64,000 bases of DNA from Chthoniobacter flavus. GTDB taxonomy: Bacteria; Verrucomicrobiota; Verrucomicrobiia; Chthoniobacterales; JACTMZ01. This document shows, piece by piece, positions 16,254 to 25,466 of the stretch; the first letter of the stretch is position 1; each line of letters begins with the position of its first letter. Below the pieces are notes generated by a model that saw only the letters and a list, made by a program, of their open reading frames with translations, was not told the origin of the DNA and searched no databases. The position numbers and the translations under genes are program-made. The stretch is from contig CAMDUL010000002.1 in assembly GCA_945878135.1 (NCBI GenBank), forward strand, positions 1 to 64,000, given 5' to 3'.

Positions 16254-16622
16254 ATGAGCACCGAATACACTTCCACGCACATCCCAACCCCCCGCGTCCA
16301 AGAACTCCCCACCATCACCGCCACCGAGCTCAAAAACGCCACCGCCGACGTCTTCGAGCAAGTTGCCGCCAAACAAGCCGTGGCCATCACCCGCCACGAA
16401 AAACCCCGCGCCGTTCTGCTCTCCGTCGAGCAATACGAAGCGCTCACCGGCCAACGCCCGGACTGGCTCGAACAACTCCACGAAGAATACCGCGGCATGC
16501 TCGACCGCATGCAGGGTCCGGAACAGCGGGCGATCGCCGACAAACTCTTCCAAGCCACGCCGCAGGAACTCGGCGAGGCTGCTTTGCGGGCTGCACAGCA
16601 TGAGGCTAAAGGCAAATGCTGA
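16254..16622 (+). CDS. Type II antitoxin, Phd/YefM family
   Basis: A 122-residue protein. Residues about 18-66 carry the Phd/YefM DNA-binding fold: ITATELKNATADVFEQVAAK, then AITRHEKPRAVLLSVEQYEAL. Residues 67-122 form a charged helical extension that would be the toxin-neutralising part. In this family the N-terminal domain dimerises on the operator and the C-terminal tail binds the toxin. The gene starts directly after the palindrome and its stop overlaps the toxin start by 7 bases (16616-16622), a normal antitoxin-first arrangement. The partner is a zeta-type kinase, unlike the Doc or RelE/YoeB toxins usual for this family. Confidence 0.85.
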   Translation: MSTEYTSTHIPTPRVQELPTITATELKNATADVFEQVAAKQAVAITRHEKPRAVLLSVEQYEALTGQRPDWLEQLHEEYRGMLDRMQGPEQRAIADKLFQATPQELGEAALRAAQHEAKGKC

Positions 16623-17272
16623 AACAACCGCCTACCATCTCCGTCCTCGCTGGCGTGAACGGCGCCGGCAAGAGCAGCATCGCGGGCAAATTCCTGCAAA
16701 AGGCAGGCGATGCGTTTTTCAACCCCGACACCGTCGCGCAACAGATCCGAACCCTCCACCCGAGCATCTCCCTCACCCTCGCCATTGCCCACGCTTGGCA
16801 GATCGGCAAATCCCTGCTCGAGCAGGCCATCGCCGGCGGACACGACTACCGCTTCGAAACCACGCTGGGCGGCCGTACCATCGCGCAACTGCTCGAAAAA
16901 GCCGCCCGCTCCGGCCACCGTCTTCGCATCTGGTTCTGCGGGTTGGCCAGCCCCGAACTCCATCTCCGCCGCGTGCAAAGCCGCGTGGCGCTCGGCGGAC
17001 ACGATATCCCGGAGGACAAGATCCGCGAACGCTGGAACCGCAGCCGCGAAAACCTCGTCCGCCTCCTCCCCCTCATCGACCACCTCCGCGTTTATGACAA
17101 TTCCGCGGATGCCGACCCCGCGGAAGGATTGAAACCCCAACCCGTCCTCCTGCTCGAAATGAAACGCGGCACAATCACCGCCCCCGCCGACCTCTCCGGC
17201 GCGCCCGATTGGGCCAAGCCCGTCATCGCCGCGGCCATCCATCTGCACACCGCCGGACGTTCAACGGCCTGA
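16616..17272 (+). CDS. Zeta-toxin family P-loop kinase
   Basis: A 218-residue P-loop protein of the zeta toxin/UDP-N-acetylglucosamine kinase group. Walker A is GVNGAGKSS (residues 13-21). Family features follow: FFNPDTVAQ near residue 34, FETTLGG near residue 80, and the RV-x2-R-GGHDIPE-x2-I-x2-R block at about 119-140. Zeta toxins phosphorylate UDP-GlcNAc and so stop peptidoglycan synthesis; chromosomal relatives may have other substrates. Translation is coupled to the antitoxin through the ATGCTGA overlap. The final 40 residues look unstructured. Activity is inferred from family. Confidence 0.85.
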   Translation: MLKQPPTISVLAGVNGAGKSSIAGKFLQKAGDAFFNPDTVAQQIRTLHPSISLTLAIAHAWQIGKSLLEQAIAGGHDYRFETTLGGRTIAQLLEKAARSGHRLRIWFCGLASPELHLRRVQSRVALGGHDIPEDKIRERWNRSRENLVRLLPLIDHLRVYDNSADADPAEGLKPQPVLLLEMKRGTITAPADLSGAPDWAKPVIAAAIHLHTAGRSTA

Positions 17273-19872: not shown

Positions 19873-20792
19873 AACCTTCCGTCTCCGGTTCCGCCGACCC
19901 GGCCCAGCTGGCCGGCAAATTCGCGCCGCTGCTCATCATTGTCATTCTCCTCATGGTCGCCGCCGCGGGCGTGATGGTGACCGTCGACGCCGGCAATGTC
20001 GGCGTGGTCAAACGCTTCGGCGCGGTGCGCGACATCGCCCTGCCCGAAGGCCTCCATTTCAAGCTGCCGTTCGCCGAGGAGGTGGTGCCCATGACCACCC
20101 GCCTGACCGCCAGCGAGGCCAAAGCCACGGCCGCCTCGCGAGATCTGCAGATTGTCACGACCGATGTGACCACGACCTACGCGCTGGACGGCGCGCTGGC
20201 TCCCCTCACCTTCCAACGCATCGGCACGCCGGAAAAAGTGGCCTCCAATATCGTCAATCCCGCCATCCAGGAATCGGTCAAAGCCGTCACGGCCAAATTC
20301 ACCGCCGAACAGCTTGTCACCCAGCGCGAGGTGGTCAAACAACAGATTCAACAGGCGATCGCCACCTTCATCGACACCACGCTGAACGAGAAAGACATCC
20401 GCGGTGCGATTACCATCGCCAACGTGGCCATCACGGATTTCAAATTTTCCGACGAGTTCAACAAAGCCATCGAGGCCAAAGTCCAGGCCGAGCAGGACGC
20501 CCTCAAAGCGAAGAACGAAAAACTCACCCGCGTCACGCAAGCCGAAGCCGCCGCCGAGGAAATGAAACTCGCCGCCGCGGCCAAAGCTTTCAGCATCGAG
20601 GCCGAATCCGAGGCACGCGCCGACGCCATCACCCGCGAGGCCGAGGCCCTGACCGGACGCCCGGAGGTCCTGCGCCTGCGCAGCATCGAACGTTGGGACG
20701 GCGTCCTGCCCCGCATCACCAGCAGCGAAGGCATGCTGCAGATGTTGCCGCTCGATCCCGGCATGCTCGAGGGATCGTCGAAAAAACCGTGA
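19869..20792 (+). CDS. SPFH/Band 7 (prohibitin-like) membrane protein
   Basis: A 307-residue protein with one N-terminal membrane anchor (about residues 20-41) and a prohibitin-type Band 7 domain: VDAGNVGVVKRFGAV, then LPEGLHFKLPF. A long Ala/Glu/Lys-rich coiled coil follows (about 190-265: AEQDALKAKNEKLTRVTQAE). Such proteins form large membrane-associated rings or microdomain scaffolds and often regulate proteases such as FtsH. It is coupled at both ends, with ATGA before it and GTGA to alr after it. Confidence 0.88.
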   Translation: MKPSVSGSADPAQLAGKFAPLLIIVILLMVAAAGVMVTVDAGNVGVVKRFGAVRDIALPEGLHFKLPFAEEVVPMTTRLTASEAKATAASRDLQIVTTDVTTTYALDGALAPLTFQRIGTPEKVASNIVNPAIQESVKAVTAKFTAEQLVTQREVVKQQIQQAIATFIDTTLNEKDIRGAITIANVAITDFKFSDEFNKAIEAKVQAEQDALKAKNEKLTRVTQAEAAAEEMKLAAAAKAFSIEAESEARADAITREAEALTGRPEVLRLRSIERWDGVLPRITSSEGMLQMLPLDPGMLEGSSKKP

Positions 20793-21910
20793 ACTCCGCC
20801 GGCGCGGCCTGGCGCATCCGCGCCGAGATCGACCACGACGCACTGCGTCACAACGCGGCGGTGGTCCGCGCGGCGATCGGCGACCAACCCGGCATCATCG
20901 CGGTGGTCAAAGCCGGCGGCTACGGCCATGGCGGACCCGAAGTGGCCAAGACCCTGGCCCGGTATGCCGCGCAATTCGGCGTGGCCACGCTGGACGAAGC
21001 GCGTGCGGTGCGCGCGGCGGTGCCCCAGAAGGACATTCTGCTTTTGAGTCCGTGCCTGCCGGGCGAACGCGAGGCGGCGGTTGAGGAGGGATTTATTCCC
21101 GTCGTCTCGGGCACGGCCGAAGCCAGGGCTTACGCGCGTCTGGCGCAGGACGAACCGGTTCGCATCCATTTGTGCATCGACACCGGCATGGGACGCCTCG
21201 GCGTCTGGCAGGAAGAAGCGATCAAGACCGCTCAGGAGATCGCGGCAATCGACGGCATCGAGGTCGAAAGCGTTTCCACCCATTTGCCCGTGGCCGACAG
21301 CGACCCGGACTTCACCGCGCAGGAACTGGCCGCATGGGACCAGCTTGCCGCGCAATTGCGCCCGATTTTGCCCGGTGCGAAATTCCACGCTTTGAACAGC
21401 GCGGCCTCCTTGGAACGTCCGCAGCACGCTGCCGACCGCGTGCGCCCGGGACTGGCGCTCTACGGCATCTCCCCCCTCCCCGCGTTTCAAAAGCTGCTGC
21501 AACCCGTGATGACATTGAAAACACGCATCTCGCTCGTGCGTGATGTCGGCGCCGGTCGCGGGATCAGTTACGGTCGTGATTTCATCACGCGGAAAGCGAT
21601 GCGCATCGCCACCTTGGCCATGGGTTATGCAGACGGCTACCCGCGCCAGACTTCGAACCAAGGCGCGCACGTGCTCATCCGCGGAAAGAGATGTCCGATT
21701 CTCGGCCGCATCACCATGGACCAGTTCATGGTCGACGTGAGCGACCTGCCGCGCGATGTCGCCCCCGGCGAGGAAGTCGTGCTTTTCGGGAAGCAAGGAG
21801 ACGAAGAGATTACGGTCGGTGAAGTCGCCTCATGGGCGGGAACGATCACGTGGGATATTTTGACACGCTTGGGCAAGCGGGTTGTTACCGAGCATTTGAA
21901 CAGAAGGTAA
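20789..21910 (+). CDS. alr: Alanine racemase
   Basis: A 373-residue PLP enzyme making D-alanine for peptidoglycan. The PLP lysine is K41 in IAVVKAGGYGHG, where the usual NAYGHG reads GGYGHG. The second catalytic residue is Y261 in GRGISYGRDF. RPGLALYGISP and the C-terminal TMDQFMVDVSDLP are typical. The start is GTG 20789, overlapping the SPFH stop. The last three codons (Asn-Arg-Arg) and the TAA stop lie inside the left inverted repeat of the adjacent cassette, so the C-terminus was probably altered by that insertion. Confidence 0.95.
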   Translation: MNSAGAAWRIRAEIDHDALRHNAAVVRAAIGDQPGIIAVVKAGGYGHGGPEVAKTLARYAAQFGVATLDEARAVRAAVPQKDILLLSPCLPGEREAAVEEGFIPVVSGTAEARAYARLAQDEPVRIHLCIDTGMGRLGVWQEEAIKTAQEIAAIDGIEVESVSTHLPVADSDPDFTAQELAAWDQLAAQLRPILPGAKFHALNSAASLERPQHAADRVRPGLALYGISPLPAFQKLLQPVMTLKTRISLVRDVGAGRGISYGRDFITRKAMRIATLAMGYADGYPRQTSNQGAHVLIRGKRCPILGRITMDQFMVDVSDLPRDVAPGEEVVLFGKQGDEEITVGEVASWAGTITWDILTRLGKRVVTEHLNRR

Positions 21911-21926
21911 CGAAGGAAACGAAGGG
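21899..21926 (+). repeat. Left 28-bp inverted repeat of the GxxExxY cassette
   Basis: Identical to the reverse complement of 22345-22372. It contains two and a half copies of a 9-bp unit. It covers the last three sense codons and the TAA of alr and ends next to the stop codon of the GxxExxY gene. Confidence 0.9.
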
Positions 21927-21927
21927 T

Positions 21928-22335
21928 TCAGACAGCCTGGTTGGAACCCGGAAGGCAGAGGCGGTGGATACCTTGCTTGAGCAAGGCTTCGTGGAAATTG
22001 ATCAGCAGGCCGATCGGAACATCAAGTAGTCTCATATAGCTCAGGAGTTGGGCCTTGCTCACGGGGTGCAAAGTCTCGACGGCTTTGAGTTCGACGAGCA
22101 GGCATTCCTCAACCAGCAAGTCGCAACGCAGGTTGTCATCGAAGACGAGTCCTTTGTATTCCACCCTGACCGCCATTTGTTTGGCCGATTTGATCCCGCG
22201 CAGTTCCAATTCGCGTTGCAGACACTTTTCGTACACCGACTCCATCAGCCCCGGACCCAAAACCCTATGCACCTCGATCGCCGCGCCAATCACCTCTTTG
22301 CTCAAAGCGTCAGCTTTGGCAAAGAGCGAGTGCAT
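21928..22335 (-). CDS. GxxExxY family protein (PD-(D/E)xK nuclease-like fold)
   Basis: A 135-residue protein with the naming motif G29-L-M-E32-S-V-Y35 in VLGPGLMESVYEKC. It also has a nuclease-like core: D72 in LRCDLLVEE and E82-L-K in LLVELKAV. GxxExxY proteins are widespread, often sit in odd places between housekeeping genes, and have no proven function. The start is ATG 22335; the purine-rich end of the right repeat (gaaggggg) lies 8-12 bases upstream and would serve as the ribosome-binding site. The gene fills the whole interval between the two repeats. Confidence 0.85.
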   Translation of the reverse strand: MHSLFAKADALSKEVIGAAIEVHRVLGPGLMESVYEKCLQRELELRGIKSAKQMAVRVEYKGLVFDDNLRCDLLVEECLLVELKAVETLHPVSKAQLLSYMRLLDVPIGLLINFHEALLKQGIHRLCLPGSNQAV

Positions 22336-22344
22336 TCCGTAACC

Positions 22345-22372
22345 CCCTTCGTTTCCTTCGTTACCTTCTGTT
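22345..22372 (-). repeat. Right 28-bp inverted repeat of the GxxExxY cassette
   Basis: Reverse complement of the left repeat without mismatch over 28 bp. It ends 9 bases from the secA stop codon. Read on the minus strand it is in frame with the GxxExxY gene and would encode a Thr-Glu-Gly-Asn-Glu-Gly-Asn-Glu-Gly stretch, but no start codon precedes it. Confidence 0.9.
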
Positions 22373-22381
22373 AAAAAAATC

Positions 22382-25345
<2,964 letters not shown>

Positions 25346-25466
25346 GCCTGCAAAAGACCCCAGTCCGGGAAAACCTTCAGAATATCCGCCCGGGCACCGC
25401 CCGCAAAGGAAATCGGACACTGTTGGGACTTGCCGCGGAGGGAAGCCTGCCTACCTTGGACGCCGC

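Follow-up and report, generated by a model that had tools for sequence, protein, structure and literature searches.

The present work concerns a stretch of 64,000 nucleotides from Chthoniobacter flavus (contig CAMDUL010000002.1 of assembly GCA_945878135.1, a draft of 56 contigs), referred to below as the window. Between the alanine racemase gene alr (20693-21910, plus strand; the start given here is the earliest possible, and the true one is probably later) and the convergent secA (22382-25420, minus strand), the window contains a 482-bp unit (21895-22376) that consists of an arm, a gene of the GxxExxY family and a second arm. The left arm (21895-21926) is built from the units AACAGAAGG (21899-21907), TAACGAAGG (21908-21916) and AAACGAAGG (21917-21925), and the right arm (22345-22376) is its reverse complement, followed by a T-run to 22379. 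The two arms are 97% complementary over 32 nt, with a perfect core of 28 nt, AACAGAAGGTAACGAAGGAAACGAAGGG. The gene (21928-22335, minus strand) encodes a protein of 135 residues; between its stop codon and the left arm there is 1 base, and 9 bases separate its ATG from the right arm. The TAA stop of alr (21908-21910) lies inside the left arm, which also supplies the last codons of that gene, and the stop of secA is found 5 bases past the right arm. The cassette fills the whole gap between the two genes, with almost no other sequence. The initial annotation had described a GxxExxY gene packaged flush between perfect 28-bp inverted repeats of a 9-bp unit, at a site between two convergent housekeeping genes, and this description is confirmed, each arm being composed of three 9-bp units with a conserved heptad and a variable dinucleotide.

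Since the units are 9 bp long, reading frames stay open through the arms, which may cause wrong start calls for GxxExxY genes. Some arms read as ...TEGNEGNEG... at protein ends, as at L017 (G000:C4:50192) and in an extended N-terminal reading of the window gene. Elsewhere in the window (16254-17272) there is a gene pair that by eye resembles an antitoxin of the Phd/YefM type with a zeta-toxin-like ATPase after it.

The window protein matches both TIGR04256 (GxxExxY; E=2.4e-41, 140.7 bits against a cut-off of 35) and PF13366 (PDDEXK_3; E=5.6e-40, 136.8 bits against a cut-off of 22). The statement in the initial annotation that GxxExxY proteins have no known function needs to be corrected in part, because Pfam places the family in the PD-(D/E)XK nuclease superfamily and a functional lead does exist. 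The corresponding residues in the window protein are GxxE (E32), D72, E82-x-K84 and Q96xxxY100. Among 123 proteins, E32 and D72 are invariant, E82, K84 and Q96 are each present in at least 120, and the Q96-xxx-Y100 pair is invariant or nearly so; the layout of E, D, E-x-K and QxxxY is that of the RecB/Cas4/lambda-exonuclease-type nucleases. For an AlphaFold2 model of the protein (pLDDT 92), the closest folds are lambda exonuclease and the archaeal Cas4 protein SSO0001 (E ~0.01, probability 0.97-1.00), and a weak match to the Cas4 profile is also obtained (E=0.006). No solved structure was found among the relatives by sequence search, no invariant cysteine for a Cas4 Fe-S cluster is present in an alignment (A1), and no cas genes are located beside the loci examined. 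Judged from its residues and its modelled fold, GxxExxY is a PD-(D/E)XK nuclease of the Cas4/lambda-exonuclease kind with an intact active site, the cutting itself being inferred. There is no biochemical evidence, and it is the conservation of all catalytic residues that argues for DNA cutting as the selected property. A phage-borne element is not supported, as only one confirmed relative was found in 2.9 million viral contigs. The family occurs in 8 plasmid records, the neighbourhood being looked at in one of them.

The arms are dispersed well beyond the cassette. The arm pattern has 21 matches in the source genome, against 0 for the reversed pattern, which corresponds to about 20 further copies, and genus-wide the AACGAAGG repeats are found in 7 of the 11 congeneric genomes. 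Over the 20 distinct arm sequences of the source genome, the heptad AACGAAG is conserved to 0.88-1.00 per position, and the following two positions to 0.72 and 0.55. The copies without a gene are either single arms (e.g. TTGAACAGAAGGTAACGAAGGAAACGAAGGG) or inverted doublets whose loops measure roughly 20-40 nt. They are mostly intergenic, as seen for 15 of the 18 examined in the source genome and for 15 of 18 in the complete chromosome G132 (see below), and often lie near a stop codon. Calculated as DNA, three of these bare hairpins fold with z=-6 to -7, that is, 6-7 standard deviations better than their shuffles. In one of them, from the CACTAAT family of G132, the heptads are paired and the dinucleotides unpaired, while in the two others most of the arm is paired.

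At the locus itself, alr was found in 10 congeners, and in only 3 of these is the cassette present at its 3' end. In G007 and G009 the alr locus has a 48-nt collapsed hairpin, and in G008 a solo arm of a different family, while the alr–secA gap of G003 (L108) is occupied by another dispersed inverted repeat, of the TGTAGCGGCGGTC...GACCGCCGCTACA type, which also occurs at L223. This means that the outcome named as a refutation in the initial annotation, with all relatives having the same repeats and gene here and no copies elsewhere, is not what is observed. In the comparison of the junction that it proposed, the presence of the cassette varies; no clean empty site was found among the congeners examined. 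At one other gene junction (locus A), six congeners have a doublet, present as such or decayed, and G002 has none, although sequence divergence there hides the exact boundaries. Four congeners (G003, G007, G008 and G009) have AACGAAGG repeats without an intact cognate gene, and either these MAGs are incomplete or the gene has been lost and the orphan repeats persist.

Within the genus, the arm word is different for every GxxExxY subfamily (CACGGAG, ACAGGAT, CGCGGAG and CACGGAT among others), and the same anatomy is found far outside the genus. The loci sampled were 30 from 30 Verrucomicrobiota genomes and 80 from other organisms, including Bacteroidota, Pseudomonadota, Planctomycetota, Chloroflexota, Cyanobacteria, Omnitrophota and Methanosarcinales. 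The gene usually lies between inverted arms, which commonly begin with TTAACCAC or TTCACCRC. At 91 of the 120 loci with enough flank, the framing exceeds the 99th percentile of shuffles, and cognate upstream and downstream flanks score above mismatched ones with p=3e-45. Neighbouring ORFs, used as a control, are framed in only 2 of 26 cases (p=8e-11). The other 29 loci have no clear arms by score, some of them with visible but weaker arms. It is important to point out that the sample consists of those loci that matched the family or the alignment best, and the framed fraction may therefore differ for divergent members.

The complete chromosome G132 has 11 GxxExxY genes, paralogues that are 24-70% identical. 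Ten of them are framed, by ten different arm families. Searching with the ten arms, together with the same letters reversed, gives 61 matches, 0 of them in the reversed half and 46 dispersed away from the GxxExxY genes. Neighbours of the same family are always arranged as L-arm followed by R-arm, either abutting or 18-72 nt apart, and at L296 a hairpin of one family is nested within the loop of another. At L323 (~1390-1590; G132:C1:3045567-3045754) two hairpin families are interleaved in the order A-left, B-left, A-right, B-right, an arrangement for which simple hairpin insertion is no explanation.

The arms are also cognate to the proteins. Protein identity and arm similarity are correlated with a Spearman coefficient of 0.47, the highest value in 1000 permutations being 0.22, and the coefficient stays at 0.47 when pairs that share a neighbouring gene are left out. 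Of 62 pairs of proteins that are at least 60% identical and have matching arms, 54 share no neighbouring gene, including cross-phylum and archaeal-bacterial pairs. The covariation, together with the matching arms in unrelated neighbourhoods, indicates therefore that gene and arms travel as a unit. The initial annotation had suggested minimal cassettes as the form in which GxxExxY genes move, perhaps with mobilisation in trans, and this is supported by the recurrence of the anatomy across phyla and next to unrelated genes. It did not include the cognate relation of arms and protein, the fact that the element mostly occurs as a bare hairpin, or the intact catalytic residues of the nuclease. Gene and repeats co-occur as well. 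In 194 Verrucomicrobiota genomes of at least 90% completeness, GxxExxY is present in 109 and absent from 85, and the commonest arm motif, CACRGAGNNCACRGAG, has 1166 copies in the former and 13 in the latter (reversed controls 14 and 7). Fisher's test of the co-occurrence gives p=6e-16 when kinship among the genomes is ignored; because the genomes are related, this value overstates their independence, and the copy ratio is the more robust statement.

The explanation that we consider most probable, with moderate confidence in it as a whole, is that the unit at 21895-22376 represents a dispersed hairpin element in its gene-bearing form, with the gene in place of the loop, and that it belongs to a nuclease-associated system similar to REPIN-RAYT. 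The nuclease would recognise the arms cognate to it and help them to spread, and gene and arms would also move together between lineages. The basic element would be a pair of inverted arms around a short loop, with three 9-bp units per arm (conserved 7-mer plus variable dinucleotide). Each GxxExxY nuclease would recognise the heptads of its own arms, probably in a hairpin or cruciform with paired heptads and bulged dinucleotides. Nicking or processing of the arms would then lead to short gene-less hairpins being copied to new sites in trans, possibly by repair synthesis at cut hairpins or by template use at a replication fork. The gene cassette may travel as a hairpin of the same type, now and then within a genome and more frequently from one lineage to another, along with its arms. 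The recognition of the arms by the protein, the cleavage, the copying and any benefit to the host are all inferred. The most plausible mobilising enzyme is the GxxExxY protein itself, since its nuclease residues are intact.

A point that counts against this explanation is that we know of no way in which a PD-(D/E)XK enzyme alone could join DNA ends. No target-site duplication is evident, the outer flanks scoring barely above the mismatched control (p=0.04, borderline), and neither a clean recent insertion nor a pair of near-identical recent cassette copies at different sites in one genome was found. The four congeners with repeats but no intact cognate gene and the 29 loci without clear arms also weigh against it. 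Two near-identical cassettes in G004 (C12 and C14) were considered as a recent duplication and rejected; their flanks are identical, and they are therefore probably an assembly duplicate.

Another option is that the hairpins are spread by something else and that GxxExxY is a homing endonuclease gene, which cuts the gene-less hairpins and is copied into their loops by repair. PD-(D/E)XK homing nucleases are known, e.g. I-SspI, the gene is located exactly at the loop position of the bare hairpin, and bare hairpins are more numerous than gene-bearing ones. The bare hairpins could in this case be the empty sites of the homing gene, again with the cleavage inferred. Hairpins that are independent of the nuclease should, however, be common also in genomes without GxxExxY, where they are nearly absent. 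The tracking of protein sequence by arm sequence is a further argument against homing, and so is the fact that each arm family in G132 has a single gene-bearing copy in spite of the many loops on offer. We regard homing as unlikely, but still as a possibility to be taken seriously.

A functional, non-mobile role of the repeats, as bidirectional terminators or chromosome-structure sites that the nuclease services (e.g. by trimming cruciforms) and that are copied by ordinary recombination or gene conversion, appears to us quite improbable. It would agree with the stable folding of the hairpins, with their intergenic positions, often directly after a stop codon, and with their persistence at orthologous sites in six congeners. 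For a fixed regulatory site, on the other hand, neither ten unrelated arm families in one chromosome nor hairpin families nested in each other would be expected, and the same gene-plus-arms unit would not be expected in unrelated neighbourhoods of different phyla.

The bare elements resemble REPINs, i.e. inverted doublets with a short variable loop (PMC8049555), and weak Y1_Tnp matches exist in G000, which raises the question of whether the elements are REP-like, with a Y1/HUH (RAYT) transposase that spreads them in trans and GxxExxY as a passenger. A Y1_Tnp match is however found in none of G003, G007, G008 and G009, four congeners that all have AACGAAGG repeats, and a RAYT was on this ground rejected as the mobiliser of this family. 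The covariation of the arms with GxxExxY is also difficult to reconcile with a passenger, and by inspection the arms do not have the GTAG/CGTC tags known for the REP superfamilies (PMC3733652). We consider this scenario very doubtful. Chance or an assembly artefact can practically be disregarded, because, in spite of the 56-contig draft and the apparent duplicate in G004, the same anatomy is found in the complete single-contig chromosomes G132 and G091 and the reversed-sequence controls are near zero.

Returning to the proposed nuclease-driven hairpin system, it is instructive to compare it with systems that are already described. In the REPIN-RAYT pattern, an enzyme gene is framed by its own repeat and accompanied by many gene-less doublets and by singlet remnants, with more copies where the gene is present, and RAYTs are described as vertically inherited (PMC8049555). 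The GxxExxY system is similar in that a small enzyme gene lies between inverted copies of a short repeat, that there are many gene-less doublets with short variable loops, mostly intergenic, along with singlet remnants, that the gene-holding genomes have more copies, and that several families can coexist, each with its own enzyme. It differs in that the enzyme is of the PD-(D/E)XK type (PDDEXK_3; Cas4/lambda-exonuclease-like) and not HUH/Y1, in that the arms consist of three 9-bp units with a conserved heptad and without REP tags, and in that gene and arms cross phyla and the divide between bacteria and archaea.

With insertion sequences and their MITEs, the cassette shares the single gene between terminal inverted repeats and the short non-autonomous derivatives with the same ends, but its only gene is PDDEXK_3, without a recombinase domain of the DDE, HUH, serine or tyrosine type, and neither a target-site duplication beyond the borderline signal nor near-identical multicopy gene-bearing elements were found. 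As in the PD-(D/E)XK homing endonucleases, a small nuclease is encoded in the middle of its putative recognition sequence, but it does not lie in an intron, an intein or a conserved gene, and its cognate arms are dispersed without it. The fold and the GxxE, D, ExK, QxxxY layout are those of Cas4, lambda exonuclease and RecB nucleases, while GxxExxY is only ~130 residues long, has no conserved Fe-S cysteines and is found outside CRISPR and phage recombination operons. The Rpn recombination-promoting nucleases are also small PD-(D/E)XK proteins linked to recombination, formerly annotated as transposases. They belong to a different Pfam family, and to our knowledge they have no cognate dispersed arms.

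We found no description of this gene–repeat system in the open-access literature searched; one in a subscription journal or a preprint may have escaped us, and this absence does not prove novelty. The GxxExxY papers there (PMC8934634 and PMC12085832) are not about repeats, PF13366/TIGR04256 is mentioned only incidentally, the arm sequences lead only to unrelated vertebrate papers, and nothing combines REPIN with PDDEXK. The arrangement, with different repeat words for different nucleases across bacteria and archaea, points to an undescribed kind of repeat-spreading system. In its broadest form, the claim would be that GxxExxY nucleases are the founding enzymes of an undescribed, domain-crossing class of dispersed repeats, with many subfamilies, private 'heptad x 3' addresses and hairpins multiplied in trans by a PD-(D/E)XK mechanism. 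The REPIN-RAYT lifestyle would then have been invented a second time, independently, and a large part of the short repeats with a 9-bp period in Verrucomicrobiota, Planctomycetota, Bacteroidota and others would come from this source. We are evenly divided on whether this broad form is correct.

A widespread family of unknown role gains in this way a testable one, and a large class of unexplained short repeats gains an owner. If the nuclease does spread the hairpins, repeats would be mobilised here with none of the HUH, DDE or recombinase chemistries. The heptad addresses, which are modular (one for each subfamily and several in a genome), would then represent a natural panel of sequence-specific small nucleases, and the system would offer a second model for why bacteria tolerate replicating hairpin populations.

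Some further observations concern the repeats. In the genus, AACGAAGG arms or doublets are in several places split by similar GC-rich inserts of ~85 nt (AGCACCGGAGC...GAGCGGGAGCGA...GAGTCAA), namely in the upstream arm of L056, in L207 (885-1040), in L217 and in L222, and at L078 a tail similar to this insert precedes an arm; the insert may be a second element that targets AACGAAGG arms. In L088, L090, L094, L098 and L099, the first unit of many arms is split by a CCCGCTTCGCTGG-like insert (AACCAC-CCGCTTCGCTG-GAGG...), at an identical position across species. G007 and G008 share, with identical flanks, what appears to be a frameshifted GxxExxY relic with an arm-like GCGAACGCGGCGAAC repeat after it, and a shorter piece of the relic is found in G005 (L062 and L071, also L068).
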